From a virus: a stretch of DNA of 25,630 nt. The stretch's first letter is position 1. Each line of letters starts with the position of its first letter. The position numbers and the translations under genes are program-made. Shown piece by piece: positions 114 through 20,407 of this stretch. The stretch is taken from positions 1-25,630 of IMG/VR virus record IMGVR_UViG_3300030117_001685; one strand, 5' to 3'. Under the pieces are notes generated by a model that worked only from the letters and a program-made list of their open reading frames with translations, did no database searches and was not told the origin of the DNA.

Positions 114-500
114 ATGTTAGATAAATTATTTAGCGGCGGTGCTGCTGAGCTAGTAAAAGGTGTGGGTGGAGTTATAGATAACTTACATACATCTGACGAA
201 GAAAAACTCGCTGCGGAGTTAAAAGTAAAAGAATTAATCGCTAACTACGAGACTGAAATGGAGAAAAACATTACCGCTCGTTGGCAAGCGGATTTAAAGT
301 CAGACTCATGGCTTAGTAAAAATGTAAGACCTATGGTTTTAATATTTTTAATAGTATGTACAATGTTATTAATATTTATAGACGCAGGTGCTATAAAGTT
401 TGACGTTAAAGATACATGGGTAGATTTATTACAATTAGTATTAATAACAGTGATCGGTGCTTATTTTGGCGGTCGATCATTTGAAAAAGTAAAAAAATAA
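114..500 (+). CDS. Holin-like small membrane protein (3TM-holin / GTA-holin type)
   Basis: This 128-aa protein has an amphipathic, glycine-containing N-terminus, a charged helical stretch (about residues 25-62), then two clear membrane segments at about 73-90 and 102-119 and a basic C-terminus. The junction motif RWQADLKSDSWLSKNVRP before the first membrane helix is the hallmark I associate with the phage 3TM-holin family, whose members sit in the inner membrane and time lysis. The N-terminal amphipathic helix may count as the third segment. No endolysin is seen in the window. The gene lies between a Gly-rich fibre-like gene and the terminase region, the same place as T7 gene 17.5. The start ATG follows an AT-only spacer; the only GGAGG nearby (93-97) is too far upstream to act. 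An alternative is a virion-associated membrane protein. Confidence 0.72.
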   Translation: MLDKLFSGGAAELVKGVGGVIDNLHTSDEEKLAAELKVKELIANYETEMEKNITARWQADLKSDSWLSKNVRPMVLIFLIVCTMLLIFIDAGAIKFDVKDTWVDLLQLVLITVIGAYFGGRSFEKVKK

Positions 501-2319: not shown

Positions 2320-2539
2320 TGAGTTAATTAAGGTTGCTAAAGAACCTATAGTTGATTCAGACGACGATATATCAGCAGATAGATTAAAAAACGCTGCAGC
2401 TACTAAAAAACTAGCAATATTTGACGCATTTGAAATACTTAACAGAATTCAAGAAGAAGAGAACTTGCTTGAGGGAAAAACACCTGAAGAGAGAAAGGAA
2501 AAAGTCTTTAAAGGATTCGCAGAAGGCAGATCTAAGTAA
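2264..2539 (+). CDS. Putative terminase small subunit-like protein
   Basis: A 91-aa helical, charged protein immediately upstream of the large terminase, sharing one base with it (TAATG). The conserved-looking core is the stretch SADRLKNAAATKKLAIFDAF followed by EILNRIQEEE, with a basic or flexible end (GFAEGRSK). Position, size and helicity fit a TerS, which would recognise phage DNA and hand it to TerL, but no classic helix-turn-helix can be asserted. I chose ATG 2264 because it follows an A/T-only spacer. The frame is open further up to a TTG at 2213 and an ATG at 2216, which would add 16-17 residues with no better upstream context. With the chosen start, 56 bases overlap the co-chaperonin gene. 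Confidence 0.5.
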   Translation: MNIKETKKNIIQAGQRAVDELIKVAKEPIVDSDDDISADRLKNAAATKKLAIFDAFEILNRIQEEENLLEGKTPEERKEKVFKGFAEGRSK

Positions 2540-4752
2540 TGTACGAGCAAAGTTTAGTTAAGACAATAGAACCTATTAAAAAGACTACTATTAGTAGACT
2601 TAATAAAACAAAAAAATGGAAATATGGATACAATAAAGAAAACGATATCGTTGTTATATCAAAAACTGGTAAAATTGGTGAGATTATTGAAATACAAGGG
2701 TTGCGAATTGCTTTGCCGTTGGAACCAATGCACGTGCACACCAATAAAAAAAGTAAGTGGCAAAAAATAGAATATCCAAAAGAATTAAGTAGATTAAAAA
2801 ATATATTTGATTGGAGGTCATATCCTGAAGATCAAAAAGAAAAATGGTTTGATTATATAGACGAAGAATTTAAATATAGAGATGAGGGTTTTTGGTTTAT
2901 GAACAATAATAAACCAACATACATAACAGGTGCACATTATATGTATCTACAATGGAGTAAAATTGATGTAGGCGCTCCAGATTTTAGAGAGGCTAATAGA
3001 TTATTTTATATATTCTGGGAGGCTTGTAAGGCAGATAAAAGATGCTACGGTATGTGTTATCTTAAAAATAGACGTTCTGGATTTTCTTTTATGTCATCCG
3101 CAGAAACGGTTAATTTAGCTACTATTTCAAGTGATAGTAGATTTGGTATACTATCTAAAACAGGTGCTGACGCTAAAAAAATGTTTACAGATAAAGTAGT
3201 ACCTATTAGTATTAATTATCCGTTTTTCTTTAAACCAATACAAGATGGTATGGACAGGCCAAAATCAGAGCTTGCATATAGAGTGCCAGCTAGTAAGTTT
3301 ACAAGAAAAAAGATAACTGCTAATGAACAAATAGAAGATATACAAGGTTTAGATACAACTATAGACTGGAAAAACACGGGTGACAATAGTTATGACGGTG
3401 AAAAACTAGCTTTACTTGTACACGACGAAAGTGGTAAATGGGAAAGACCTGATAATATATTAAACAATTGGAGAGTAACTAAAACTTGCCTTAGACTTGG
3501 TAGTAGAATTATAGGTAAGTGTATGATGGGTAGTACGTCAAACGCTTTAGATAAAGGAGGTGATAACTTTAAAAAATTATACAATGCATCAGATGTCACT
3601 AAAAGAAATAGAAATGGTCAAACAAAATCTGGTTTATATTCTTTGTTTATCCCAATGGAATGGAACTACGAAGGATTTATTGACGAGTATGGAGTTCCAG
3701 TATTCAATAGTCCTGACGTCGACGTGTTTGCCCCAGATGGTGAATTAATTGATATAGGAGTTATAGATCACTGGCAAAACGAAGCTGACGGTTTAAAAAA
3801 CGATCAAGACGCTTTAAACGAGTTTTACAGACAGTTTCCACGTACTGAAGAACACGCATTTAGAGACGAAACAAAAAATAGTATATTTAACTTAGTAAAA
3901 ATATATGAGCAAATAGATTATAACCAAGAGATGTCTAGAAGTCTTGGTGTTACGACTGGTAATTTTCAATGGGTGAACGGTATAAAAGATACACAAGTTA
4001 TATTTTATCCTGATCAAAATGGTAGATTTAAAGTTAGTTGGGTACCACCTCAACAATTACAAAACAGACTAATAATTAAAAATGGAGTAAAACACCCTGG
4101 TAATGAACATATGGGATCCTTTGGTTGCGATAGTTACGACATATCAGGAACTGTAGACGGTAAGGGGTCTAAAGGAGCATTACACGGTTTAACTAAGTTT
4201 AGTATGGAAGATGCACCTGCTAATAGCTTTTTTTTAGAATATTTATCGAGACCACCTACAGCTGAAATATTTTTTGAAGATGTATTAATGGCATTAGTAT
4301 TTTACGGTATGCCTATACTAGCAGAGAATAACAAACCAAGATTGTTGTACTATTTAAGACGTAGAGGTTATAGAGGTTTTAGTATGAATAGACCAGATAA
4401 AGTCTGGAATAAGTTATCTGTAGCAGAAAAAGAAATAGGTGGTATACCAAACTCTAGTGAAGATATAAAACAAGCGCATGCAGCTGCTATAGAAATGTAT
4501 ATACAAGATCATGTTGGTATGAAACAGGACGGTAGTTTTGGTGATTTATACTTTAACGAACTTTTAAACGATTGGAGTAAGTTTGATATTAACAAAAGAA
4601 CAAAGTTTGATGCTACGATAAGTAGTGGTTTAGCTATCATGGCGAATAATAGACATTTATACGCGCCAAATGCTAAAATTGAAAAACAAAGTTTAAACTT
4701 AAACATATCCAGATATAATAATACTGGAACAAATTCACAAATAATAAAATAA
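2539..4752 (+). CDS. terL: Terminase large subunit (packaging ATPase and nuclease), crAss-like type
   Basis: A 737-aa packaging motor that docks on the portal, pumps DNA with ATP and cuts it. The ATPase half has an adenine-region aromatic stretch (YMYLQW, 134-139), a degenerate P-loop KNRRSGFS (176-183, no GKT/GKS), Walker B ALLVHDE (291-297, D296 and E297) and a coupling motif GSTSNA (331-336). The nuclease half shows the RNase H-like acidic set: GCDSYD near 529-534 (D531 or D534), LAEN with E596, and FDAT with D691. It is longer than T4 gp17 (610 aa), with an N-terminal extension of about 85 residues. It follows the TerS-like gene with a one-base overlap and precedes the portal by 2 bases. 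The family call is strong; the crAss-like affinity is from memory. Confidence 0.9.
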   Translation: MYEQSLVKTIEPIKKTTISRLNKTKKWKYGYNKENDIVVISKTGKIGEIIEIQGLRIALPLEPMHVHTNKKSKWQKIEYPKELSRLKNIFDWRSYPEDQKEKWFDYIDEEFKYRDEGFWFMNNNKPTYITGAHYMYLQWSKIDVGAPDFREANRLFYIFWEACKADKRCYGMCYLKNRRSGFSFMSSAETVNLATISSDSRFGILSKTGADAKKMFTDKVVPISINYPFFFKPIQDGMDRPKSELAYRVPASKFTRKKITANEQIEDIQGLDTTIDWKNTGDNSYDGEKLALLVHDESGKWERPDNILNNWRVTKTCLRLGSRIIGKCMMGSTSNALDKGGDNFKKLYNASDVTKRNRNGQTKSGLYSLFIPMEWNYEGFIDEYGVPVFNSPDVDVFAPDGELIDIGVIDHWQNEADGLKNDQDALNEFYRQFPRTEEHAFRDETKNSIFNLVKIYEQIDYNQEMSRSLGVTTGNFQWVNGIKDTQVIFYPDQNGRFKVSWVPPQQLQNRLIIKNGVKHPGNEHMGSFGCDSYDISGTVDGKGSKGALHGLTKFSMEDAPANSFFLEYLSRPPTAEIFFEDVLMALVFYGMPILAENNKPRLLYYLRRRGYRGFSMNRPDKVWNKLSVAEKEIGGIPNSSEDIKQAHAAAIEMYIQDHVGMKQDGSFGDLYFNELLNDWSKFDINKRTKFDATISSGLAIMANNRHLYAPNAKIEKQSLNLNISRYNNTGTNSQIIK

Positions 4753-4754
4753 AT

Positions 4755-7175
4755 ATGGCGTATACTAGTAAAAGTTATTTTCCAAGCCAAACGGTTAGCG
4801 ACGCTGAAAAGCTTAGTTATGATTATGGTTTAAAAGTAGCCAAAGCTATAGAAACAGAGTGGTTTCATGATGAAAGAACAACCAATAGATATAGCGCATA
4901 TAGAAATGATTTTCATAATTTAAGATTATATGCTAGAGGCGAGCAGTCTATACAAAAATACAAAGATGAGCTATCTATAAACGGTGATTTATCTTATTTA
5001 AATTTAGACTGGAAACCAGTACCTATTATATCTAAGTTTGTAGATATAGTAGTTAATGGCATAGCTGAAAGAACATATGACATACAGGCTTTTTCACAAG
5101 ATTCTTACGGCGTTGAAAAACGTACTAAGTACATGGAAGATATAATGGCTGATATGGAAAACCAACAATTCGATCAAGAAGCAAGTCAACAGTTTGGTGT
5201 AAATACTAGGCAAAGTGAAATAAAGGAATTACCAGAAACACCAGAAGAACTAGGTTTACACATGCAACTAGAATATAAGCAAGCTGTTGAAATAGCTCAA
5301 GAACAAGCTTTAGCTTTATTATTTGAAGGTAGTAATTATGAGTTAATTAAAAAACGTTTTTTTAGAGATTTAACTGTATTAGGTATTGGTGCTGTAAAAA
5401 CTAATTTTACAACATCAGAAGGTGCTACTGTAGAATATGTTGATCCTGCTAACTTAGTATACTCTTACACAGATTCGCCTTACTTTGAAGATATATATTA
5501 TGTTGGAGAAGTTAAAACTATACCTGTAAATGAATTAGCAAAACAATTTCCTCATTTAACAGAGTCTGATCTTGAAGAGATAATGAAAAGCAAAAATTAT
5601 AATAGAAGTAATTATAATAATAGATACTCAACTAAAAAAGAAGATGTAAATACAATACAGGTTTTATACTTTGATTTTAAAACTTATATGAACGAAGTTT
5701 ACAAAATAAAAGAGTCTAAAAGTGGATCTGAAAAAGTTTTACCTAAAGACGATAGTTTTAATCCACCAAAAGAAAAAGAAGGTGGGTATTCAAGGTTGTT
5801 AAGAGCAATAGAAACTATTTACCAAGGCGCTTTAATTTTAGGTACAGATAAGTTATTAAAGTGGGAAATGGCTACAAATATGATGAGGCCAAAAAGTAAT
5901 TTCACTAAAGTTAAAATGAATTACGCTATATGCGCGCCTAGAATGTATGAAGGCCGTATTGATTCATTAGTAAAACGTATTACTGGTTTTGCTGATATGA
6001 TTCAACTTACACATTTAAAGTTACAGCAAGTGATGTCGCGTATGATACCTGATGGTGTTTATTTAGACGCAGATGGACTTGCTGAAATAGATTTAGGTAA
6101 CGGTACAAACTACAATCCACAAGAAGCTTTAAACATGTTTTTCCAAACAGGTAGTGTTATAGGAAGATCTTATACTTCTGATGGAGATATGAACCCTGGT
6201 AAAGTTCCTATACGTGAAATACAATCTGGCGCGGGTGGTGGTAAAATGCAAGCACTTATAGGTAACTATAACTATTACTTGCAAATGATACGTGATGTGA
6301 CTGGTTTGAATGAAGCTAGAGACGGTAGTACACCTGATAGAAACGCACTAGTAGGTATACAAAAAATAGCAGCTGCCAATAGTAATACAGCAACTAGACA
6401 CATATTACAAGCGGGTTTGTTTTTAACAGTTGAAACAGCTGAAAAATTATCACTTAGAATATCTGATATTATAGAATATTCTCCAACTAGAGAGGCATTT
6501 ATACAAGCTATAGGTGCTCATAATGTTGCTACGTTAGGAGAAATGTCAGAACTACATTTATATGATTTTGGTATATTTTTAAACTTACAACCAGATGAGG
6601 AAGAAAGACAAATGCTTGAGAATAATATTCAAATGGCTATCCAACAAAAAAGTATTGATCTTGAAGACGCTATAGATCTTAGAGAAATTAAAAACATAAA
6701 ACTAGCTAACCAACTTTTAAAGCTTAGAAGAAGTAAAAAGATGGAAAAAGACCAAGCTATGCAGCAACAAAATATACAGATGCAATCACAGGCAAATGCT
6801 CAAGCCGCTCAAGCTGCTTCACAAGCTAAGATGCAAGAACAACAAGCTATTACTCAAAGTAAAATGCAGTTAGAGCAAATGAAAGGCCAGATGGAATCTC
6901 AAAAAATGCAACAAGAAGCTATGTTAAAAAAAGAATTAATGGCCTTAGAGTTTCAGTACAACATGCAGTTAAAAGGTGTTGAATCTCAAGGGTTGCAACA
7001 AAGAGATACTGAAAAAGAAGATAGAAAAGATAAAAGAACCAAAATACAAGCTAGTCAACAATCTGAACTGATAGAACAAAGAAAAGGTAATAGACCTGCT
7101 AAAAACTTTGAATCATCAGGTAATGATTTAATGGGTGGTGGTTTTAACATAGATAAATTCGGGCCAGCTAAATAA
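4755..7175 (+). CDS. Portal protein
   Basis: An 806-aa dodecameric portal, the head vertex channel through which TerL packages DNA. The length fits large podovirus-type portals (P22 gp1 is 725 aa). Motifs include the N-terminal LDWKPVPIISKFVDIVVNGI (84-103), the wing/stem pattern EYVDPANLVYSYTDSP (227-242), and a helical crown/stem region with DVTGLNEARDGSTPDRNAL (514-532). Residues about 660-780 form a very Gln/Met/Ala-rich coiled coil, like the helical barrel of P22-type portals that projects into the capsid. It lies 2 bases after TerL and 27 bases before the scaffold, the standard packaging order. A loop-like region rich in Lys/Ser/Asn (about 280-345) may be flexible. The call rests on motifs, size and gene order. 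Confidence 0.85.
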   Translation: MAYTSKSYFPSQTVSDAEKLSYDYGLKVAKAIETEWFHDERTTNRYSAYRNDFHNLRLYARGEQSIQKYKDELSINGDLSYLNLDWKPVPIISKFVDIVVNGIAERTYDIQAFSQDSYGVEKRTKYMEDIMADMENQQFDQEASQQFGVNTRQSEIKELPETPEELGLHMQLEYKQAVEIAQEQALALLFEGSNYELIKKRFFRDLTVLGIGAVKTNFTTSEGATVEYVDPANLVYSYTDSPYFEDIYYVGEVKTIPVNELAKQFPHLTESDLEEIMKSKNYNRSNYNNRYSTKKEDVNTIQVLYFDFKTYMNEVYKIKESKSGSEKVLPKDDSFNPPKEKEGGYSRLLRAIETIYQGALILGTDKLLKWEMATNMMRPKSNFTKVKMNYAICAPRMYEGRIDSLVKRITGFADMIQLTHLKLQQVMSRMIPDGVYLDADGLAEIDLGNGTNYNPQEALNMFFQTGSVIGRSYTSDGDMNPGKVPIREIQSGAGGGKMQALIGNYNYYLQMIRDVTGLNEARDGSTPDRNALVGIQKIAAANSNTATRHILQAGLFLTVETAEKLSLRISDIIEYSPTREAFIQAIGAHNVATLGEMSELHLYDFGIFLNLQPDEEERQMLENNIQMAIQQKSIDLEDAIDLREIKNIKLANQLLKLRRSKKMEKDQAMQQQNIQMQSQANAQAAQAASQAKMQEQQAITQSKMQLEQMKGQMESQKMQQEAMLKKELMALEFQYNMQLKGVESQGLQQRDTEKEDRKDKRTKIQASQQSELIEQRKGNRPAKNFESSGNDLMGGGFNIDKFGPAK

Positions 7176-8376: not shown

Positions 8377-9819
8377 ATGGCAATTACAAGTGCGAACGGT
8401 ATAGATGCCGCTCCTAGAAAACAAACGTTGTCGTCTAACTATGTAGACTTTACATCAAGCGCTACTGAAGGATGGGCACAACAATATTTACCAGACCTTA
8501 TGGAAAAAGAAGCTGAGGTATACGGTAAAAGAACAATCGCAGGTTTTTTATCTCAAATTGGAGCTGAAGAAGCTTCTACATCTGATAGAGTTATATGGTC
8601 AGAACAGGGTAGATTACATTTAGCTTATACAGCTACTTATAATGACAATAACACTGATTACACTATTGTAAACGATATTGATGGTAACACTGTTGGTGCA
8701 GACCACGGTATTAGAGTTGGTGATATGGTTATTATGTCTGTTGCTAATGCAACGGCTAAAGGTTACGTTTCTCATATCGATCCAGATGGTGATGACACTG
8801 ATCAAATTAGAGTTATTGCTTATGGAGCTGCTAATATGACTACAGCTTTAGGCTCTACGGCTACTACAGCTGGTGCTGTAAGAATTCTAGTTATTGGTTC
8901 TGAATTTGAAAAAGGAACTGATGGTAGATCTGCTGCTAACTCTCCTAAATTTAAATCTCACTCTAACAAGCATATTATCATGAAAGATTACTACGAAGTG
9001 TCTGGATCTGATACTACGCAAATTGGTTGGATTGAAGTTGCTGGAGAAGAAGGTCAATCAGGTTACCTATGGTATTTAAAAGCTGAAGGTGACACTAGAG
9101 CTCGTTTTACTGACTACTTAGAGATGACTATGTTAGAAGCTGAAACAGCTGTTGCTGGTGCTGGTGCAATTGGTGGTACTGATGGTGGTGCTTTACAAGA
9201 TGGTACGCAAGGTTTATTCCAAGCTATTACCACTAGAGGTCACCAAACTTCTGGTATTACTGGTGTTAACGCTGCAACTGATTTAGCTGAGTTTGACGCT
9301 ATATTAGCTGTGTTTGACCAAAACGGTGCGATTGAAGAAAACATGCTTTTTGTTGATAGAAGTACTTCGTTAGCAATGGATGACATGTTAGCTTCAATGA
9401 ACTCTTATGGGGCTGGTGGTACATCTTACGGTGTATTCGACAACTCAGAAGACATGGCACTTAACTTAGGATTCTCTGGATTCCGAAGAGGTTCTTATGA
9501 CTTCTACAAATCTGACTTCAAATACCTTAATGATAAAGGTACAAGAGGTGCTTTAAATGATACTGTAAATAACATTAGAGGAGTTGTTGTTCCTGCTGGT
9601 GTATCATCAGTATATGACGAGCAATTAGGTAAAAATATGAAACGTCCTTTCTTACATGTAAGATATAGAGCTTCACAAACTGATAATCGAAGATTAAAAA
9701 CTTGGATTACTGGTTCTGTTGGTGCTGCTACTTCTGGTAAAGATGTAATGGAAGTTCATTACTTATCTGAAAGATGTTTAGTTACTCAGGGAGCTAATAA
9801 CTTCATGTTGATAAACTAA
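8377..9819 (+). CDS. Major capsid protein (HK97-type fold expected)
   Basis: A 480-aa shell protein directly after the scaffold gene. It has an N-arm-like helical start, then a soluble alpha/beta body rich in Gly, Ala, Thr and Asp with no membrane segment; residues about 90-180 look like an inserted beta domain. Length and place fit the HK97-fold capsid proteins of crAss-like podoviruses (about 490 aa). Its codons differ from its neighbours: I count 26 Ile codons as 19 ATT, 3 ATC and 4 ATA, whereas nearby genes favour ATA, a sign of very high expression. The gene ends just before a strong intrinsic terminator. There is no protease or HK97-like maturation gene nearby, so cleavage is not predicted. 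The fold cannot be proven by eye; gene order is the main argument. Confidence 0.85.
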   Translation: MAITSANGIDAAPRKQTLSSNYVDFTSSATEGWAQQYLPDLMEKEAEVYGKRTIAGFLSQIGAEEASTSDRVIWSEQGRLHLAYTATYNDNNTDYTIVNDIDGNTVGADHGIRVGDMVIMSVANATAKGYVSHIDPDGDDTDQIRVIAYGAANMTTALGSTATTAGAVRILVIGSEFEKGTDGRSAANSPKFKSHSNKHIIMKDYYEVSGSDTTQIGWIEVAGEEGQSGYLWYLKAEGDTRARFTDYLEMTMLEAETAVAGAGAIGGTDGGALQDGTQGLFQAITTRGHQTSGITGVNAATDLAEFDAILAVFDQNGAIEENMLFVDRSTSLAMDDMLASMNSYGAGGTSYGVFDNSEDMALNLGFSGFRRGSYDFYKSDFKYLNDKGTRGALNDTVNNIRGVVVPAGVSSVYDEQLGKNMKRPFLHVRYRASQTDNRRLKTWITGSVGAATSGKDVMEVHYLSERCLVTQGANNFMLIN

Positions 9820-10753: not shown

Positions 10754-11491
10754 ATGGTAAGTGTAGACTCAGTATATCAAAAAGTTTTAGCTTTAGCTAA
10801 TAAAGAACAAAGAGGTTATATAACTCCTCAAGAATTTAATTTGTTTGCAGACTTAGCTCAAAAAGAAATATTTGAACAATATTTTTATGATATAAACCAG
10901 TTTAGAAGAGTACCTGGTAATAATCATGAATTTAGTGATCCATTAAAAAATCTAGATCAAAAAATATCTATTTTTGAAAAATATGATGAGAGTGTTGTGC
11001 CTGTTAATTCGTATAGCGATATATTTTTACCAAATGATGTTTACAGAGTTGGTATGATAAGAGTTAAATATAGAGGAAATCCTAGAAATGTTATAGCAGA
11101 AAAAATAGATTTTAGACAATTAATGACTTATCATGAAGCCCCTTTAACAAGAGCAAATAAAATGATTGGGGCTTATTACACTCAATACCCAACAAATGCT
11201 GGTGAGAATAGAATAAAAATATATCCAATTGTTTCTCAAGACGAAAGCGTAGATCAAGTTCGAGTTAGTTACATACGTAAACCAGTACAACCTAAATGGA
11301 CTTATGTAGTTATAAACGACAAACCAATATACAATGGTACTAACGCGATTGATTTTGAATTACATCAATCAGAAGAATCAGAGCTAGTATACAGAATATT
11401 AGTTTTAGCTGGTATAGCTATAGAAAAACCACAACTCACACAAACAAGCGCTCAGTTAGCAAGTGCACAAATTCAACAAGAAAAATCATAA
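10754..11491 (+). CDS. Head-tail connector/ring protein (adaptor-like)
   Basis: A 245-aa protein. The N-terminus is helical (VYQKVLALANKEQRGYITPQ then EFNLFADLAQKEIFEQYFYD, residues 8-46). A beta-rich middle (DIFLPNDVYRVGMIRVKY, then VSYIRKPVQPKW near 171-182) and a C-terminal helical pair (FELHQSEESELVYRILVLAG, 201-220) follow. A helical bundle plus a beta sheet is the layout of portal-bound adaptor and ring proteins, and its position between capsid and nozzle genes matches T7 gp11 and crAss-like ring proteins. These rings stack under the portal and link it to the tail. The gene ends 3 bases before a second, longer protein that probably has a related job. No enzyme motif is seen. The assignment is by architecture and position. 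Confidence 0.6.
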   Translation: MVSVDSVYQKVLALANKEQRGYITPQEFNLFADLAQKEIFEQYFYDINQFRRVPGNNHEFSDPLKNLDQKISIFEKYDESVVPVNSYSDIFLPNDVYRVGMIRVKYRGNPRNVIAEKIDFRQLMTYHEAPLTRANKMIGAYYTQYPTNAGENRIKIYPIVSQDESVDQVRVSYIRKPVQPKWTYVVINDKPIYNGTNAIDFELHQSEESELVYRILVLAGIAIEKPQLTQTSAQLASAQIQQEKS

Positions 11492-11494
11492 TAA

Positions 11495-13126
11495 ATGGGA
11501 TTAATTACAGAAACACAAAACGAATATTACAGTGGTAATAATCATGGTAGTTATCAGTTTATATCTTTACAAGATCTTATAACTCAGTTTGAAATAGCTT
11601 ATGTTGGTGAAGGTAAAGTAATACCTAAAATAAAAAGAGCTGATATATCATTTTTTGCACAAAGAGCTTTGCAAGAATTATCATTTGATACTTTTAAATC
11701 TATAAAATCTCAAGAAATAGAAGTGCCACCTAGTTTACAAATGATATTACCTCATGATTATGTTGGTTATACTAAATTATCTTCTGTAGACGCTTCTGGT
11801 ATAAAGCACGTTTTATACCCTACTACAGATACTAACAACCCTTTTCAAATAAAACAAAATGCTGATGGTAGTTACTTTTTTGGTGAAGCAACAAATATAG
11901 TAAATAATTTTGATTTTACAGTAGATTTAAATGCTTCTGAGTGGAGCTTTAACAATATTACATTTGGGAATGGTGCTTGGGATAGCACTAGCTTTAATGC
12001 TAATGGTAATGGTGGTAACGGACAGTATAAATTTAACTATATATTAGATAGTATACAAATAACAAATCAAGAACTTGAGTTTTCAATTTTGTGGCATAAT
12101 AATGCTCAAAACACCGGTGGTAGTAAAGCTTACGGCGCTTGGCAAAGATTAGATGTTAGTAATGCTGATATTGTAACTTTAAAAGCGACTGCTAAATCTG
12201 GAGACCGACAAACAGATGATAGTGGCACTTTATTGTGTGACTATGGTGTTGTTAGGGTTGGCTTGAGTACTATAAATCCAAGTGTTGGTTTTGAATTAGC
12301 AAACGGTAATATAGTAAACGCTAATCACACTAATCCTTATAATACTAATTATCCATCGCCAAACGTAGATGCATCAAGATTAGATTTAGGCTATACGGAA
12401 TGGAGTGATGGTACAGCTAGTCAAAAAGAATTAGAAGACATAGATGTTTCTTCGTATGATGAAGTTTGGGTTTATATACAATCTTTTTCACCTTGGCAAG
12501 CTGCTGCTGTAACAGACGTTTCTTCGGGTGCTCAAGGTGGTACAGTAGCAATATCACCTACTTCATCTGTAAATAACACTCCACAAAAAAACACTGTTAA
12601 TGAGGTTCAAATTGTAGTAGATGGTTTATTTCCAAGCTTAACCGAAAATAACGAAGATGGTATATCATCAACTTGGGATAAGTACAAGTCTATAACACCA
12701 GCTGAAGATAGAAACGATAATTATGATGACGATGATCATATATACCAAGCTAATGTTGGTAGAAGATATGGTATAGAACCTTCTCACGCTCAAATAAATG
12801 GATCATTTTATATCGATGAACTTAGAGGAAAAATACATTTTAGCTCTAACATTTCAGGAGAAACTGTGATATTAGATTATATAAGTGATAGCTTAGGTAC
12901 AGATGAAGAAATGCAAGTGCATAAGTTTGCAGAAGAAGCTATGTATAAACACATTGCTTATGCTATATTATCTACTTCTTCAAATCCGCTTCATCAAAAC
13001 TTAGCTGGAAGAATTAAAAGAGAAAGGTTTGCAGCTACAAGACAAGCTAAACTAAGATTATCAAATATTAAATTAGAAGAATTAACTCAAATACTTAGAG
13101 GTAAATCTAAACATATAAAACACTAG
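11495..13126 (+). CDS. Head-tail adaptor/ring protein with a large inserted beta domain
   Basis: A 543-aa protein. The N-terminal block (residues 27-110) has the helical adaptor look: DLITQFEIAYVGEG, then ADISFFAQRALQELSFDTF, then LPHDYVGYTKLSSVD. The C-terminal block (410-541) holds YQANVGRRYGIEPSHAQING, a beta hairpin FYIDELRGKIHFSSN, VILDYISDSLGTDEE and a helix VHKFAEEAMYKHIAYAI. I recall these blocks from crAss-like and other Bacteroidota podovirus ring proteins. Between them, residues about 133-379 form an Asn/Gly/Ser/Thr-rich, Trp-containing beta domain resembling a jelly-roll or carbohydrate-binding module (VNNFDFTVDLNASEWSF and onward). It probably sits between portal and nozzle, and the insert likely faces outward. 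The start at 11495 follows the previous stop by 3 bases. Confidence 0.65.
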   Translation: MGLITETQNEYYSGNNHGSYQFISLQDLITQFEIAYVGEGKVIPKIKRADISFFAQRALQELSFDTFKSIKSQEIEVPPSLQMILPHDYVGYTKLSSVDASGIKHVLYPTTDTNNPFQIKQNADGSYFFGEATNIVNNFDFTVDLNASEWSFNNITFGNGAWDSTSFNANGNGGNGQYKFNYILDSIQITNQELEFSILWHNNAQNTGGSKAYGAWQRLDVSNADIVTLKATAKSGDRQTDDSGTLLCDYGVVRVGLSTINPSVGFELANGNIVNANHTNPYNTNYPSPNVDASRLDLGYTEWSDGTASQKELEDIDVSSYDEVWVYIQSFSPWQAAAVTDVSSGAQGGTVAISPTSSVNNTPQKNTVNEVQIVVDGLFPSLTENNEDGISSTWDKYKSITPAEDRNDNYDDDDHIYQANVGRRYGIEPSHAQINGSFYIDELRGKIHFSSNISGETVILDYISDSLGTDEEMQVHKFAEEAMYKHIAYAILSTSSNPLHQNLAGRIKRERFAATRQAKLRLSNIKLEELTQILRGKSKHIKH

Positions 13127-13129
13127 TAT

Positions 13130-16100
13130 ATGCCAGAAATAAAGCATAATTTTATCAGTGGTAAAATGAATAAAGATTTTGACGAAAGAATCGTCAAAAA
13201 CGGTGAATATAGAGATGCCATGAATATACAAGTCAACACATCAGAAGATTCTGAAGTTGGTACTGTTCAAAATATACTAGGTAATTCTTTAATAACAGGC
13301 CAAGATTTTTTATCAGATAGAGCCATTTGTATTGGTAGTATTTCTAATGAAAGAGAAGATAAAGTTTATTATTTTGTAACAAATAAAGAGTTTGTTAAAA
13401 ACCCTAACTTTTCAAGAGATTTAAATGGAGATGGGCAAGTTGATCGTTGGACTCTAGAGTCTGGGTGGACTTGGGATAGTAATAATAAAGTTGTTAAAGG
13501 TAATAATCCTGGTCAATACTTTAAGGTTAGACAACCTACACCTTTTATAGGTGGTATTGATTGGCCTGTTACTATTAGGGTAACTCTTAGCGGCGTACAA
13601 TCAAACATTGATAATGGAACACTAGATGTGCGTTTAGTTAATTCAGGTGGTAAAGGTGTTAGGTTTGATATTGAAGATTTACAGAATAAAACTTATGAGT
13701 TTACAGGTAAAATAGGTGATTACGAAACTACTACTCAAAGTGTTTTTGATCAAGTTTTAATACAAAGAAGTGATAGTACAGGTGATGGTTATCAAGGTAA
13801 TATAGAAAGTATTTCTGTTTCTGAAGGTTATGATTATATTATAGAATACGATAAAACTCTAAACAAAATAACACCTGTTTTTGTTGATCACACTAAAGAG
13901 GTTTTAAGATTTAATCACAATAATTTAATAACTGGTATTAATATTATTGATGATATGTTATTTTTTACAGATGGCAACAGTGAGCCTAAAAAAATAAACA
14001 TACCAAGATCTATAAAAGGTACTAATCCTAATGGTAATGAAAAAACTAATTTTATAAATGAGTTTACAGATACACAAGTTGTCTGTAAAGAAGAGCATAT
14101 AACAGTAATAAAAAGAAAGCCTACATCTCAACCAACTATAAAACTAGTACAAGAGGTTGATCCTACTAAAACCAACTCAGCTATAACTAGAATATTAGAC
14201 GAACCAAGTAGTATAATTGCAGATGGTATAGTTGGACCTGATATTAATTTTAATAATTTTGAAGTAGGTAATGAAAAAACTATAGAATTATTTACAGATT
14301 TAAATGGTGAAAGTGGTTTTACTTTAGATTGGGCTGTTGGAGACTTAATAGGTATAAAAGCTTTTGAAGGTAGTAGTTTTGATGAACAACCTTCTTTACC
14401 ACTTCTTAATTATAATATAAAAGGTAAAATAGTAGCTAGTCCAGAAAATGATTTTACTGATTTAGCTTTAGAAGTAATTCCTAACAGTGACTTTGCTATT
14501 TCTAACTCTACAGGTGTTAAACCAAAATTTTGGACTAATTTACCAAACAATTGGAATTACAACCATCAAACCGCTACAGTTGAAGTTGACGCGGGTGAAT
14601 ACCAACAATGGCAAGGCCCATCACTAACAAATACACTTGTAGCTAATGGAGAGTACATACTTTCTATAAAAATAAATAACTATGTACAAGGAGGTGTTAA
14701 CGTGTGGCTTTGTACTACTCCAGCTGTAGTTGGTGATACTACTGACTATAGTAATACTACAGAGCCTAGATATTTATTTAAATTAACTGACACTACTATT
14801 GTATCAAATGGTATTTTTGAAAAAGAGTTTAATCTTTCACCAGGTAATCAAACACAGTTGTTTACACAAACAAATCATAGTAAATATTACGCCGGTACAG
14901 ATAGTAGAGTATATATACAAACAACTGGTATTTCAGGCCCACAATCACTGCAAAACGAGTTTGATATAGAATATGTTTCTTTAATAAGAAAAGACCAAAC
15001 AAATGCTAAGTGTAGAATAGAAGTATTATCTGTTCCCAATCCACCACCAGTTGTTCCTGCTGGTAAACAAACAATAAACTTTATCGTTAGTAAATTAGCT
15101 CAGACTAAAAAAATATTTGAATTTAAGTTTCCTAGAATAGCTTATAGATACAAATATCAAGACAATGAGTATTCTGCTATATCTCCTTTTTCACAAGTTG
15201 CTTTTGCGCCAGGATCTTTTAACTACCACCCTAAAAGAGGTTACAATTTAGGTATGGCTAATCAACTTAATTCTATAGAAATAACAAACTTAAAATCTTT
15301 AATGCCTGATGGCGTAAAAGAAATAGATATAATATACAAAGAGGACACTTCACCTAACTTATATGTTGTTGATACAATAAAACCAAACACAGCTTATTCC
15401 CAAGCAGTAGATTCTTGGGGGCAAGGTAGTTACATTATAAGTTCAGAGCAAATATACAAAGCTATATCCTCTAATCAGTTATTGAGACCGTACGATAACG
15501 TTCCTAAAAATGCTTTAGCTCAAGATGTTAGTGGTAGTAGAGTAATATATGGTAATTATACACAAGGTTTTGATTTACTCAGCAATAACCAAAATTATTA
15601 TCCTGACTTTAACTTTAATTTTAAAAGTACAAATATACAGGGTATAACGTTACCTTCTGTAAAAACATTAAGAGAATATCAAATAGGAGCTGTTTTTGTA
15701 GATGAGCATGGTAGAGAAACACCTGTTATTTCTAGCTCAGTAGGTAGTAAAGTTTTAGATAAAGAGTTTTCAGATAAACAAAATCAAATAAATGTATCTT
15801 TTAATAATACTAATAGTCCTGAAGGTTTAAAATATGTTAAGTTTTATATAAAAGAAACTTCTGGTGAATACTATAATATGGCTATGGATCGTTTTTACGA
15901 TGCTGGTGACAATCAATTATGGTTAGCTTTTCCTTCTTCTGATATAAATAAAGTTGATATTAATGATTTTTTAATATTAAAAAAAGGTAGTGAAAGTAAT
16001 GCTTTAGTAAAAGACGAAGCTAAGTATAAAATATTAGATATACAAAGAGAAGCACCTGATCATATAAAGCAAAATAAAATATTAATAGAACAATTAACAC

Positions 16101-19100
16101 ATAATACTGATTCTACGTTAGGAAGTATAAGAGATATATTCGATGATAATGATAATTTACCTTTATCTGGTCAGCAAATATTTAGAATGAACTACGAAGA
16201 GTTTACTAAATCTTTAAGTAGAGATTTACATAATATAGAAGAAGGTTTATTATATATTCAATTTACATCACCTGTTGATAATAGTGCTTCTAAAAGATAT
16301 AGAATAAACAAAATACAAAGTACATTTGGCCAAGATGGAGTTGCTTTATCCAATGCTCAATATATTGTAATAATACAAGGTGTTTTAGGTGATGATGTTA
16401 ATTGGATGACTAACGATATAACAGGTGGTAATTCTAGTTCTATAATTGATAATGTTACTGTTAATGTATATAATTATAGGGTTGAAAATTCATCAAAATT
16501 TGATGGTAAGTTTTTTATTAAAATAGATGCTAATGGTATAGCTAATAGTAATTTATTAAGCGGGTTTTTATCTGGTAGTAAAAGCTATAGACAAGTACTT
16601 AACAAAAGGCTTTACATGTTAGATAAAGAAATAGGAAGTAAATCTTCAGCTGCGTTAACTGGTATGAAACTAGGGCAGTACAGCCATCTTTTTGGTAGGT
16701 ATGCACCATTTTTTAGAAACTATTGGTCAAAACCAAATAGATTTCAAATGGAAGAAAGTGGAAGTGGGAATAGTCCTTTTAACGCTGGTCAATATGCTTT
16801 TGCTGAAGATCAAGTGGAGAATGACTATCAAACTTATCACCAACAAACTTGGATACAGTCAAATCTTTGGAGAGATGAACTTGCTTATATTACAGTTGGT
16901 AAAGATGTTGAAGCTGCAGAGCCTAATTACGGTGGTAATGGTTTTGTTGGTTATAGTATGGGTTACTTAGGTAACAATACTTATCAAGCAAACGCTAGAT
17001 TAGCAGATTCACATGGTTGGACAAAAAGAAATAGAGAAAATAATAGCGTTTGGTTTATTGATAAAGCTTTTTGGTCTGGTAAAGTAAGAAATAATGACAA
17101 CACACTACGTTTTGGTAGTGATTTTATAATAGGTACCGATTACTCCGCCGAAAACAACGGTATTAAGGGTACAGCCGCTTCAGATAAATCAACGTTTAAT
17201 ATATCTATGGGTGGTATTTTAAGAAACTCTGATTATACAACTGAAGCCGGTGAAGAAAGAGTTACTAAAGTTAAACATTTACATAATAATGAAACAACAC
17301 AGCCTAATTATTTTAACATTGGTGTAGATGGTGGTAACAATAACTATGAGACAATTGATACTCAAGATTTGATACAGTCATTTGTTCCTGGTACTTGCTT
17401 TAGATTTAGAGAAGATCCGACAAATGAAATATATAAAATAGTGGATCCAGTAGCGCCTGATGGTCACTTAAGGTTTGATGATGGATTAACTAATGGTGGC
17501 CACTGGGATGCACAAAGAACATCAGACACATCTGACGACGTTGATTATCCTAGCAATTGGCTTTGGAAAGATACAATTAAGCCAGCAGATGATTTTAATA
17601 CACCTGTTCAATTCTCCCCTTTCCCCTTATTAGAGCCAAATCTTACGGCAGCGTGGGGTGTTAATGCAGAACCTAGAGACGATCAAGAAAATGCTTATTC
17701 AGGAATTACATGGAACACTTATTTTAGGCCTGATACAAGAAAAAGAACAGCTCAATTATCACCTAACTTTAGTACAAACTACAAATTAAAATGTGTTAAT
17801 TCTAGCAATAACGGTGAAGTAACTTGGAACCCAGCTGGTACTATAGGACCAATATCTGGTGGTTTAAAATTAACTAAAGCGCACTCTACATATTCTTCTG
17901 GGTCTACAACCGAACCAAAAGCTAGTTATTCAGCAACTGGATCAGAGTGTTATATCGTTGTTGATGATTTAGATGCGGTAAATCATGATGGTACAACTAA
18001 ACGAATAACCACCGGTTTAATACTAACCGCACACTCTGGTAGTGACAACTTAGACTTTACAGGTAGCGGTGAAAGTAAACAACCTCTTTTAATATGGAAA
18101 ATAGAAGAAATTAGTAGTGTATTTAAACTTTGGCTTTGTGGATATAAAAAACCTTTGTGTTTAGATGGTAATACTTTTACTGGCTTATCTACACACGATA
18201 TAGTTGGTAATCTACCTTCTAGTGGTGGTGACTTAACATTTGAACAACCAGCTATGAATGGTTACTCTCAATACTTATGTAATAGAATAAATGCTCAAGA
18301 CGCCATGAATCATGGTTATGAAGTTTATGATCAAGATATGGGTGTTGACAATGGTGTGCCTAGTATAATGCCTGTTTACTATAACTTTGAAATTTTAGAA
18401 GAAATTGAAAGAGAAGCTCTTTTACCTAGTAACCCTGCTATTTGGGAAACAGAACCAAAAAATAATGTTGATTTAGATATTTATTACGAAGCTAGTGGTT
18501 ACAATCCTTTGTATATAAACAATGATACAAAAAGTTTAGCAGTGCCAATAGGCTCTAGCATCATACATTTAAACGGTAACATTAGTATAGAAAACAATAC
18601 TTTAGTTAGTAACGTAGATAAAGATGGTAATGATTGGTATTTAACAACTGATAAAACATTTTTTGCTGGAAGTGGTTATATAGAAATAGGTGATAAAGTA
18701 CAAATAAATAAACAAGATGGTGGCTCTGTAATATTAATAGTAGAAAACTACGGTACTTTAACTAATAATAAAACAAATAAACTTTATTTTAAATCAAACC
18801 TTTATGGTCCAGATATATCTTATGTTTTAAACTGGCATAATTGTTTTAGTTTTGGAAACGGTGTAGAGTCTAATAGAATTAGAGATAATTTTAACTTACC
18901 ATTTATAGCTAATGGTGTTAAAGCTTCTACCACTGTAGAGTTTTCTAATTATGAAGAAGAAACAAGAAAATATGGTTTAATATATTCTGGTTTGTATAAT
19001 GCTAATAGTGGTATTAATGAGCTAAATCAATTTATAGCTGCTGAAAAAATAACTAAAGATTTAAACCCAACTTATGGTAGTATACAAAAGCTACATGCTA

Positions 19101-20407
19101 GAGACTCAGATTTAGTTGCTCTTTGTGAAGATAAAATTGTACAAATACTAGCAGATAAAGACGCTTTGTTTGAAGCAAACAACGATATGCGTTTAGTTTC
19201 TACAAATAGAGTTCTTGGACAATCTAGACCTTTCACTGGTGAATATGGTATATCTAAAAACCCTGAGTCTTTTGCATCAGAATCTTATAGAGTTTATTTT
19301 ACAGATAAAGTTAGAGGTGCTGTATTAAGATTATCAAAAGATGGTTTAACTCCAATATCTGACGCTGGTATGAAAGATTGGTTTAAAGATAATTTAAAAT
19401 TAAGTACAAAAGTAATAGGTAGTCACGATGATAAAAAAGATGAATACAACGTTACTATTTATAAAGAAAACGATGACCCTGATAACACGGGAATAAATGA
19501 GGTTTTTGTAAACACTGTTTCGTTTAAAGAAAGCGCTAAAGGTTGGGTTAGTTTTAAATCTTTTGATTTAGAAAGTGGTGTTAGCTGTGCAAACGATTAT
19601 TACACTTTTAAACAAGGTAAAATATATCAACATCACTCTGAAGATGTAGATAGAAATACTTTTTATGATAATTTTAAAAACTCTACTATTAGTGTATTAC
19701 TAAATGATATGCCTAGTAGTGTAAAAAGTTTTCATGCTTTAGGTTATGAAGGTAGTCAAGCTAGAGTTAATGGTTTTTCAACACATGGCCCTACCGGTTT
19801 AACTGATTATACTTTGTACAATATAACCGATAGAAATGGTTGGTTTGTTAGTAACATAGAAACAGAACAGGCAATAGGTAGTTTAAATGAGTTTATAGAA
19901 AAAGAAAAAAAGTGGTTTAACTATATAAAAGGCGTAAAAAATATAGATCAAGGTGATTTGTTGTTTGAGCTAACTGACTTTTCAACTTTTAATATACAAG
20001 GTGTAGGTGTGGTTGCTAACGTAGAAGAAGACTTTATTGATTTTGATATTAAAGTTAATAGCTCTATAGATGTTGGTGACATGTTGTATTTTAGTGAGTT
20101 TAATTTAGGTATGGTAAGTACAAATGATCCTAACGCTTCACAAACTCAATTAATAGATAACACAAGTTTAAAGTTAGCTGGTATTATAAGTTTTGCTAGT
20201 GGAGATACAATACAAGTGAACAATACACAAGCAAATATAGGTGGTACAATACCTTCTGTTGGTAACTACTGTTTCTTTGTAAAAAATCAAATAGTAAACA
20301 TGGCTAATTTATTAGGTTATTATGCTAACGTTAAGTTTGAAAATAATTCTATAAATAAAGTAGAACTGTTTGCTGTTTCTGCAGAAGTAACTGAAAGTAG
20401 TAAATAA
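13130..20407 (+). CDS. Giant tail nozzle / crAss-like stabilization protein
   Basis: A 2425-aa virion protein. The N-terminus, KMNKDFDERIVKNGEYRDAM (12-31) followed by NIQV and VGTVQNILGN, matches the opening of nozzle/tail-tube proteins (compare the T7 gp12 and P22 gp10 type). It is followed by propeller-like blades: DYIIEYD (235-241), then LITGINIIDDMLFFTDGNSE (266-285). Further conserved blocks are FPRIAYRYKYQDNEYSAIS (667-685) and, near the C-terminus (about 2038-2077), NPESFA and VRGAVLRLSKDGLTPIS, which I recall from crAss-like stabilization proteins. T7 gp12 is about 794 aa. Much of the extra length comes from apparent beta insertions at about 86-234 (with a Ca-loop-like DLNGDGQVD, 97-105) and 449-625, and perhaps a Cys-containing region at 1420-1720. 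It should close the tail below the adaptors. It starts 3 bases after the adaptor gene. Confidence 0.75.
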   Translation: MPEIKHNFISGKMNKDFDERIVKNGEYRDAMNIQVNTSEDSEVGTVQNILGNSLITGQDFLSDRAICIGSISNEREDKVYYFVTNKEFVKNPNFSRDLNGDGQVDRWTLESGWTWDSNNKVVKGNNPGQYFKVRQPTPFIGGIDWPVTIRVTLSGVQSNIDNGTLDVRLVNSGGKGVRFDIEDLQNKTYEFTGKIGDYETTTQSVFDQVLIQRSDSTGDGYQGNIESISVSEGYDYIIEYDKTLNKITPVFVDHTKEVLRFNHNNLITGINIIDDMLFFTDGNSEPKKINIPRSIKGTNPNGNEKTNFINEFTDTQVVCKEEHITVIKRKPTSQPTIKLVQEVDPTKTNSAITRILDEPSSIIADGIVGPDINFNNFEVGNEKTIELFTDLNGESGFTLDWAVGDLIGIKAFEGSSFDEQPSLPLLNYNIKGKIVASPENDFTDLALEVIPNSDFAISNSTGVKPKFWTNLPNNWNYNHQTATVEVDAGEYQQWQGPSLTNTLVANGEYILSIKINNYVQGGVNVWLCTTPAVVGDTTDYSNTTEPRYLFKLTDTTIVSNGIFEKEFNLSPGNQTQLFTQTNHSKYYAGTDSRVYIQTTGISGPQSLQNEFDIEYVSLIRKDQTNAKCRIEVLSVPNPPPVVPAGKQTINFIVSKLAQTKKIFEFKFPRIAYRYKYQDNEYSAISPFSQVAFAPGSFNYHPKRGYNLGMANQLNSIEITNLKSLMPDGVKEIDIIYKEDTSPNLYVVDTIKPNTAYSQAVDSWGQGSYIISSEQIYKAISSNQLLRPYDNVPKNALAQDVSGSRVIYGNYTQGFDLLSNNQNYYPDFNFNFKSTNIQGITLPSVKTLREYQIGAVFVDEHGRETPVISSSVGSKVLDKEFSDKQNQINVSFNNTNSPEGLKYVKFYIKETSGEYYNMAMDRFYDAGDNQLWLAFPSSDINKVDINDFLILKKGSESNALVKDEAKYKILDIQREAPDHIKQNKILIEQLTHNTDSTLGSIRDIFDDNDNLPLSGQQIFRMNYEEFTKSLSRDLHNIEEGLLYIQFTSPVDNSASKRYRINKIQSTFGQDGVALSNAQYIVIIQGVLGDDVNWMTNDITGGNSSSIIDNVTVNVYNYRVENSSKFDGKFFIKIDANGIANSNLLSGFLSGSKSYRQVLNKRLYMLDKEIGSKSSAALTGMKLGQYSHLFGRYAPFFRNYWSKPNRFQMEESGSGNSPFNAGQYAFAEDQVENDYQTYHQQTWIQSNLWRDELAYITVGKDVEAAEPNYGGNGFVGYSMGYLGNNTYQANARLADSHGWTKRNRENNSVWFIDKAFWSGKVRNNDNTLRFGSDFIIGTDYSAENNGIKGTAASDKSTFNISMGGILRNSDYTTEAGEERVTKVKHLHNNETTQPNYFNIGVDGGNNNYETIDTQDLIQSFVPGTCFRFREDPTNEIYKIVDPVAPDGHLRFDDGLTNGGHWDAQRTSDTSDDVDYPSNWLWKDTIKPADDFNTPVQFSPFPLLEPNLTAAWGVNAEPRDDQENAYSGITWNTYFRPDTRKRTAQLSPNFSTNYKLKCVNSSNNGEVTWNPAGTIGPISGGLKLTKAHSTYSSGSTTEPKASYSATGSECYIVVDDLDAVNHDGTTKRITTGLILTAHSGSDNLDFTGSGESKQPLLIWKIEEISSVFKLWLCGYKKPLCLDGNTFTGLSTHDIVGNLPSSGGDLTFEQPAMNGYSQYLCNRINAQDAMNHGYEVYDQDMGVDNGVPSIMPVYYNFEILEEIEREALLPSNPAIWETEPKNNVDLDIYYEASGYNPLYINNDTKSLAVPIGSSIIHLNGNISIENNTLVSNVDKDGNDWYLTTDKTFFAGSGYIEIGDKVQINKQDGGSVILIVENYGTLTNNKTNKLYFKSNLYGPDISYVLNWHNCFSFGNGVESNRIRDNFNLPFIANGVKASTTVEFSNYEEETRKYGLIYSGLYNANSGINELNQFIAAEKITKDLNPTYGSIQKLHARDSDLVALCEDKIVQILADKDALFEANNDMRLVSTNRVLGQSRPFTGEYGISKNPESFASESYRVYFTDKVRGAVLRLSKDGLTPISDAGMKDWFKDNLKLSTKVIGSHDDKKDEYNVTIYKENDDPDNTGINEVFVNTVSFKESAKGWVSFKSFDLESGVSCANDYYTFKQGKIYQHHSEDVDRNTFYDNFKNSTISVLLNDMPSSVKSFHALGYEGSQARVNGFSTHGPTGLTDYTLYNITDRNGWFVSNIETEQAIGSLNEFIEKEKKWFNYIKGVKNIDQGDLLFELTDFSTFNIQGVGVVANVEEDFIDFDIKVNSSIDVGDMLYFSEFNLGMVSTNDPNASQTQLIDNTSLKLAGIISFASGDTIQVNNTQANIGGTIPSVGNYCFFVKNQIVNMANLLGYYANVKFENNSINKVELFAVSAEVTESSK

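Follow-up and report, generated by a model that had tools for sequence, protein, structure and literature searches.

Rings and adaptors are usually regarded as conserved plumbing. Does the ring protein encoded in the window (the whole 25,630-nucleotide stretch of viral DNA that was analyzed) instead house an exchangeable domain, and what might such a domain do for the virion? The initial annotation had described a ring or adaptor protein whose conserved-looking blocks are split, at 11891-12631 (residues 133-379), by a domain of about 250 residues, and had proposed that this domain is displayed on the surface, binds sugar and serves adhesion to the host. The 25.6-kb virus fragment carries a colinear virion module with the following genes.

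2539-4752: terminase, virion module
4755..7175, + strand: portal protein (phrog_6547, E 2.2e-150)
from 7203: virion-module gene
8377..9819, + strand: virion structural protein (phrog_13704, annotated only as "virion structural")
from 9883: virion-module gene
10754..11491, + strand: upstream virion protein, 245 aa (phrog_14543), with a hypervariable middle
11495-13126, + strand: ring/adaptor protein, 543 aa (PHROG 13977, phrog_13977)
13130..20407, + strand: muzzle-like tail tip protein of 2425 aa in which several inserted stretches are hypervariable

Judging from gene order, the product of 8377..9819 is probably the major capsid protein. The muzzle-like protein matched phrog_14478 (E 3.7e-127) and, under the curated cut-off, PF25729 crAss_MUZ_C (E 0.0034). 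Within this module the ring gene lies directly before the muzzle gene, and the same order of virion, ring and muzzle-like genes was found in Maribacter phage Panino, in Cellulophaga phages phi38:1 and phi13:2 (Pervagoviridae and Pachyviridae, respectively, in their database records) and in the Flavobacterium elemo phage (elemoE). This recurring order groups the window phage with crAss-related podoviruses that infect Flavobacteriia. For the idea that the upstream 245-aa protein is a second ring, profile comparison with the ring core gave no support. A GroES-like co-chaperonin gene at 1729-2319 (phrog_13932, E 1.1e-17) adjoins the virion module, and a holin-like gene is located at 114-500 (phrog_3427, E 5.9e-29).

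Gene order, PHROG 13977 and a homologue model matching tail-ring/adaptor chains together support the identification of the 543-aa protein (11495-13126) as the tail-ring (adaptor) protein of a crAss-related marine podovirus, in line with the initial annotation. The ring fold was computed on a homologue, L044, which carries a different insert and was modelled better (pLDDT 79.3) than the window protein, whose own core was modelled poorly. The predicted structure of L044 contains the helical domain and beta-sandwich of the adaptor fold, and its core aligned with tail-ring/adaptor chains of phiCrAss001, GP4, B2, VP1, N4, Pa223 and others at Z 9.7-11.1 over 185-196 residues, the best whole-core matches being those of phiCrAss001, GP4, B2 and N4. 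Individual scores were Z 11.1 for phiCrAss001 chain 7qog_B (rmsd 5.5, 195 aligned), Z 11.1 for 8jov_G (rmsd 4.0 over 187), Z 10.6 for 9d83_B and Z 9.9 for 9lc0_H. In profile searches with the ring protein, no solved ring chain was matched by sequence.

According to the available text of PMC10172136, the rings of phiCrAss001 are dodecameric and each ring protein consists of three helices and a beta-sandwich. Rings R1-R5 (gp43, gp40, gp35, gp34) have the same kind of fold as that predicted for the homologue's core. Additionally, R1 (gp43) and the muzzle (gp44) carry neighbouring gene numbers (PMC10172136), just as the ring and muzzle-like genes adjoin in the window. Sequence similarity between these rings and the window ring protein was not detected, and the matched phiCrAss001 ring chains, at 226-238 aa, are too short for an insert such as the one described here.

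The alignment of the ring protein with relatives comprised 79 sequences (74 viral loci, four named phages and the window) and showed conserved residues 1-130 and 391-543 around a middle with little identity. The aligned insert is slightly wider than the region first noted, and the protein divides as follows.

11495..11884, + strand: N-terminal core with helices and the first beta strands (residues 1-130), conserved over the 79 aligned sequences
11885..12664, + strand: inserted domain of family A, residues ~131-390, missing in named relatives and with DNA breaks of close pairs at its edges
11879..12622, + strand: predicted CBM16-like jelly-roll, model residues 129-376 (AlphaFold2, Foldseek, VIA-align)
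12665..13126, + strand: C-terminal core (residues 391-543) with the stop codon, conserved in relatives

The composition of the insert differs from that of the core in Asn (12.1% vs 4.9%), Trp (2.8% vs 0.4%) and Lys (2.4% vs 6.7%). The region had been called Asn/Gly/Thr-rich with spaced Trp; Asn and Trp are clearly raised, whereas Gly (8.5% vs 6.0%) and Thr (8.1% vs 5.3%) rise only mildly. Since the summed Asn, Gly and Thr content of the insert (28.7%, against 16.3% in the core) was reached by 2.9% of same-length stretches when the other ORFs of the window were tested, composition is suggestive but not decisive alone.

The decisive evidence for an insert, at the level of sequence, is length polymorphism. 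The named relatives of the ring protein that were inspected are 269-307 aa long in total and do not have the insert. With an insertless relative as the query, at least 80% coverage by one place was obtained in 84 of 85 named phage records; the window protein achieved this in 0 of 85 and aligned to named relatives in two pieces. The alignment with relatives thus bears out the proposed splitting of the adaptor blocks: homologues do not all share the region at similar length, and its presence as part of the core fold was rejected because many relatives do without it. An artefact of metagenome assembly was likewise rejected, as the same insert occurs in locus L006 (89% protein identity, dN/dS 0.07) and family A was found in 38 of the 79 aligned sequences. 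A single-sequence scan with the window insert matched the contig of L006 only, and the family A profile found nothing above a chance-level match (E 0.7) in named phages. Altogether, these observations confirm the inserted domain.

An AlphaFold2 model of the window protein built with 31 natural sequences was weak as a whole (pLDDT 64.1, pTM 0.45); the strands of the insert were confident, with many blocks at 80-92, and long low-confidence loops were located at about residues 156-182, 267-290 and 342-359. Foldseek matches of the modelled insert included Cry protoxins, a porphyran-binding CBM, CBM61, CBM4, CBM16, Eph ligand-binding domains and a phage tailspike. CBM16 chains (PDB 2zex, 2zew, 3oeb) led the VIA-align list at Z 14.8 to 14.6 and rmsd 2.0-2.2, the top match being 2zex_A (Z 14.8, rmsd 2.1 Å, 130 residues, 17% identity, model 129..376). 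Full-length Cry1-type protoxins tied with CBM16 within 1 Z through their C-terminal part (Cry1Ac 14.8), and lower scores were obtained for hyaluronan-binding, porphyran-binding and CBM4 modules (Z about 11.6-13.8), and for CBM61, alginate-binding modules and the phage tailspike K2-2 TSP. A search of viral models gave a 455-aa viral protein as the best match (33% identity, E 2.1e-25); a Tenacibaculum phage structural protein and tail and CenC-like proteins ranked below it. From these matches the fold class of the insert is settled as a CBM-like jelly-roll, and the earlier suggestion of a jelly-roll resembling carbohydrate-binding modules holds at fold level.

CBM16 modules occur on glycoside hydrolases. 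The window insert shares their predicted jelly-roll fold but has longer loops, and a match to their sequence family was absent. At E 0.01, 0 of 27 type A inserts matched a CBM family in Pfam by HMMER, which is insensitive at this distance; single inserts gave only sub-threshold matches to Pfam at E up to 1, and the type A insert had no match among PDB sequences at E 1. About six aromatic residues are kept in family A and probably belong to the framework, while the loop aromatics of the window insert vary, so that no conserved sugar platform was found in the family. As the jelly-roll fold is also common to non-sugar binders (the Cry C-terminal part, Eph), the fold alone is no proof of a sugar ligand.

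In relatives, the same site of the ring protein is either empty or occupied by one of at least three insert families: A, to which the window insert belongs, and B and C, which have no detectable sequence similarity to it. The site is filled in 60 of the 79 sequences and empty in the other 19, five of which have a shorter insert close to the N-terminus. BLAST clustering separated the inserts into types A (37), B (14) and C (6) and three singletons, one of which belongs to family A by profile and brings it to 38 members; similarity of the family A profile to B or to C was not found. In the L044 model, the insert is placed between strands of the ring's beta domain. The second half of type B is structurally close to 8eci_1, a decoration protein from Arthrobacter phage Bridgette (Z 9.7, rmsd 2.3 over 74), which was also the sole match of the type B profile among PDB sequences, at an insignificant E of 0.36, and this likeness points to a non-sugar role for B. 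Type C inserts may also be sugar modules, as their profile matched, by sequence and weakly, a hyaluronan-binding module first (E 0.0074), with the endoglucanase C CBM4 module next (E 0.42).

The 74-locus set is biased toward inserts since some search words fall inside the insert, and a second locus set (76 of 80 loci used, four truncated ones omitted), ranked against an insertless query, is biased the other way; contigs of the locus sets overlap. Alignment A6 used 42 of 54 non-redundant insertless proteins. An insert-independent census was made with the last 112 residues of the C-terminal core as the query. Of at least 589 relatives, the 80 kept for closeness of this core comprised 19 of type A, 16 of type B, eight of type C, three with other inserts, three with an N-terminal insert only and 31 with none, the last three classes being taken from lengths. 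The 46 of 80 with an insert at this site represent no population frequency, because only these 80 of at least 589 relatives were kept.

Exchange at sharp borders was observed directly in the DNA. The closest pairs were about 77-92% identical up to both edges of the insert and unalignable inside. Loci L036 and L043, for example, share 88.9% DNA identity over 7.6 kb to ring residue 119, are unalignable to about residue 366 and then continue at 78%. Breaks were located at residue 117 and 368/289 in L009 (type A) and L042 (type B), at 124 and 348/282 in L018 (type A) and L049, and at 122 and 361/357 in L013 and L016, and DNA homology also stopped at the insert edges in L016/L042, L016/L191, L097/L245 and others. 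The converse was seen in L007/L040, where the inserts are more alike (91%) than the cores (77%). A core tree of 72 rows (7 of 79 dropped for short cores) required at least 16 changes of insert type; the long branches of the named phages joined in this tree, so that their placement is unsure. At least 21 changes were required by a tree of 193 rows, from which rows less than 75% filled and duplicate cores had been removed, in which rows with N-terminal inserts were counted as having none and the columns of which may include a few insert-edge residues; its well-supported branches alone force at least 4 changes for A, 7 for B and 3 for C. The insert types interdigitate on the core trees, yet their labels are more clustered than chance, which, together with the many changes, is the expectation for exchange plus descent.

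The inserts are also under purifying selection, with dN/dS of 0.07-0.43 in nine pairs including the window and L006, and family A has a mean identity of 27% in the insert vs 71% in the core. A diversity-generating retroelement as the sole cause was rejected by reasoning, as the inserts differ in family and length and not by point changes. Derivation of the insert from the neighbouring muzzle was unsupported: in these loci the family A profile matches ring proteins only, its match to the window muzzle was a 21-column stretch with a probability of 0.7%, and the match of A3 to the muzzle was not significant.

Neither the exchange between non-homologous inserts nor the hypervariable stretches in other virion genes had been noted at first. 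Variability along the module was deepest in the ring insert, in the central part of the 245-aa protein encoded upstream (about residues 51-190, window ~10904-11324; its ends are conserved) and in long stretches of the muzzle, and milder in the capsid-type protein (residues ~101-180), while terminase and portal were conserved uniformly. This pattern is as expected of outward-facing parts and agrees with the muzzle insertions described for crassviruses in the available text of PMC10172136. The variable block of the capsid-type gene (window ~8622-8963) is the sole break between two long DNA alignments of the window and L006. Muzzle stretches missing in short relatives are located at window 13388-13684, 14168-15073 and others to 18211, the first beginning with 'NPNFS', which resembles the start 'NNFDF' of the ring insert. 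Complete muzzles measured 946-1775 aa in eight phages with insertless rings vs 1615-3317 aa in those with an insert at the ring site, uncorrected for kinship. Residues 1295-1375 of the muzzle gene L017:8940-18935 matched the type B profile weakly (E 3.3e-4), hinting that the type B module family may sit in muzzles too.

Additions of beta structure to adaptors were already known. The tail tubular protein A (TTPA) of phage KP32, gp31, has a lectin-like sheet missing from T7 gp11 and P22 gp4 and was likewise proposed to bind exopolysaccharide; that element is a small sheet (residues 57-99), whereas the window has a complete module of ~250 aa that is swapped for non-homologous ones (PMC5440376, available text). 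TTPA and TTPB of phage OWB are reported to bind the adsorption receptor Vp0980 (PMC7241545). Roseophage R4C also carries an extra, Ig-like beta domain on its dodecameric adaptor, but that domain is N-terminal and contacts the capsid, while the window insert occupies an internal swap slot (PMC10276861). Crassvirus insertions, which similarly vary the length of a tail protein and can affect surface properties, are described for the muzzle, whereas that of the window lies in the ring protein (PMC10172136). A ring protein with such an exchange slot was not found described in the open-access literature examined, including passages of PMC12386605 and PMC10136315.

At this position relatives have either domains of other families or none, which argues for a plug-in slot, and we give a probability of roughly 0.5 to a slot on the tail barrel that displays exchangeable modules and here holds a carbohydrate-binding-like one for adhesion. 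The protein would belong to the rings stacked in the tail barrel of a crAss-related podovirus, and a loop of its beta domain would serve as the slot in this phage lineage, filled in the window phage by a jelly-roll of ~250 aa with a CBM16/CBM4-like shape. By analogy with phiCrAss001, the insert would lie outside the barrel, and the assembled ring, with 12 copies, would surround it with a belt of sites that bind sugar at low affinity. Such a belt may help to keep the virion attached to capsule, exopolysaccharide or particles rich in polysaccharide during engagement of the cell by the muzzle, and recombination in the conserved flanks would replace the whole module and change specificity. The initial interpretation is partly supported: surface display, sugar binding and host adhesion are reasonable to propose, and the outward orientation, copy number, ligand and adhesive role are what we infer. 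A simple sugar-only reading is weakened by the missing CBM sequence match, the variable loop aromatics, the tie with Cry proteins and the decoration-like family B. Tentatively, the ring of this clade of crAss-related marine phages could be a dedicated cassette rack, the fixed loop of which takes sugar-binding jelly-rolls, decoration-type barrels or nothing and which, with the hypervariable muzzle, would form a main surface for host or matrix recognition, specificity changing through swaps of barrel modules and not through a tail fibre.

It is rather unlikely that the slot instead provides docking platforms, each insert type binding its own partner within the virion (a fibre, hub or decoration protein) and changing with that appendage. 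R1 and R2 of phiCrAss001 bear tail-fibre docking hubs (PMC10172136), type B resembles a phage decoration protein and the muzzle, upstream gene and capsid-type gene also have hypervariable blocks. However, the swaps occur between phages whose virion genes can still be aligned for kilobases around the insert (at about 77-92% for the closest pairs), so that a docking partner would have to be a neighbouring hypervariable stretch, and the 31 insertless loci among the 80 kept in the census, which have no N-terminal insert either, also speak against docking. Somewhat less probable still is a promiscuous add-on of mild effect (particle stability, weak non-specific adhesion or shielding), like the Ig-like domains on phage structural proteins, as the purifying selection within inserts, and the low identity of family A inserts (27%) beside that of their cores (71%), resemble an arms race or change of specificity and not neutral baggage; its appeal lies in the frequent gain, loss or replacement of inserts and in jelly-roll and decoration-type barrels both fitting the same slot. 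That the insert is an enzyme, a polysaccharide depolymerase and not a binder, is very improbable even though degradation of capsular exopolysaccharide has been reported for the adaptor TTPA of KP32 (PMC5440376): the best structural matches are binding modules, the matches to a hyaluronate lyase module, an arabinanase and GH101 align over 120-140 residues, a typical module length, and a catalytic family was not found in Pfam searches.

The way of life of marine flavobacteria is polysaccharide-dependent, and here, in relatives of marine flavobacterial phages, a ring hosts a sharply bounded, recombining module with a predicted sugar-binding shape. If the slot does display adhesive modules, it would be a candidate site of receptor recognition in crass-type podoviruses, and the natural near-isogenic pairs with the same core and different modules are suited to a comparison of adsorption.

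A second insertion site was observed near the N-terminus of the ring protein, after a 'YY' motif, where inserts of roughly 85-110 aa are found. Two of these N-terminal inserts were searched against Pfam, with nothing significant. Those of L061, L062, L065, L068 and L072 start with 'KSFTGDG', and the site is also occupied in L243, L265, L267 and several of L106-L157.
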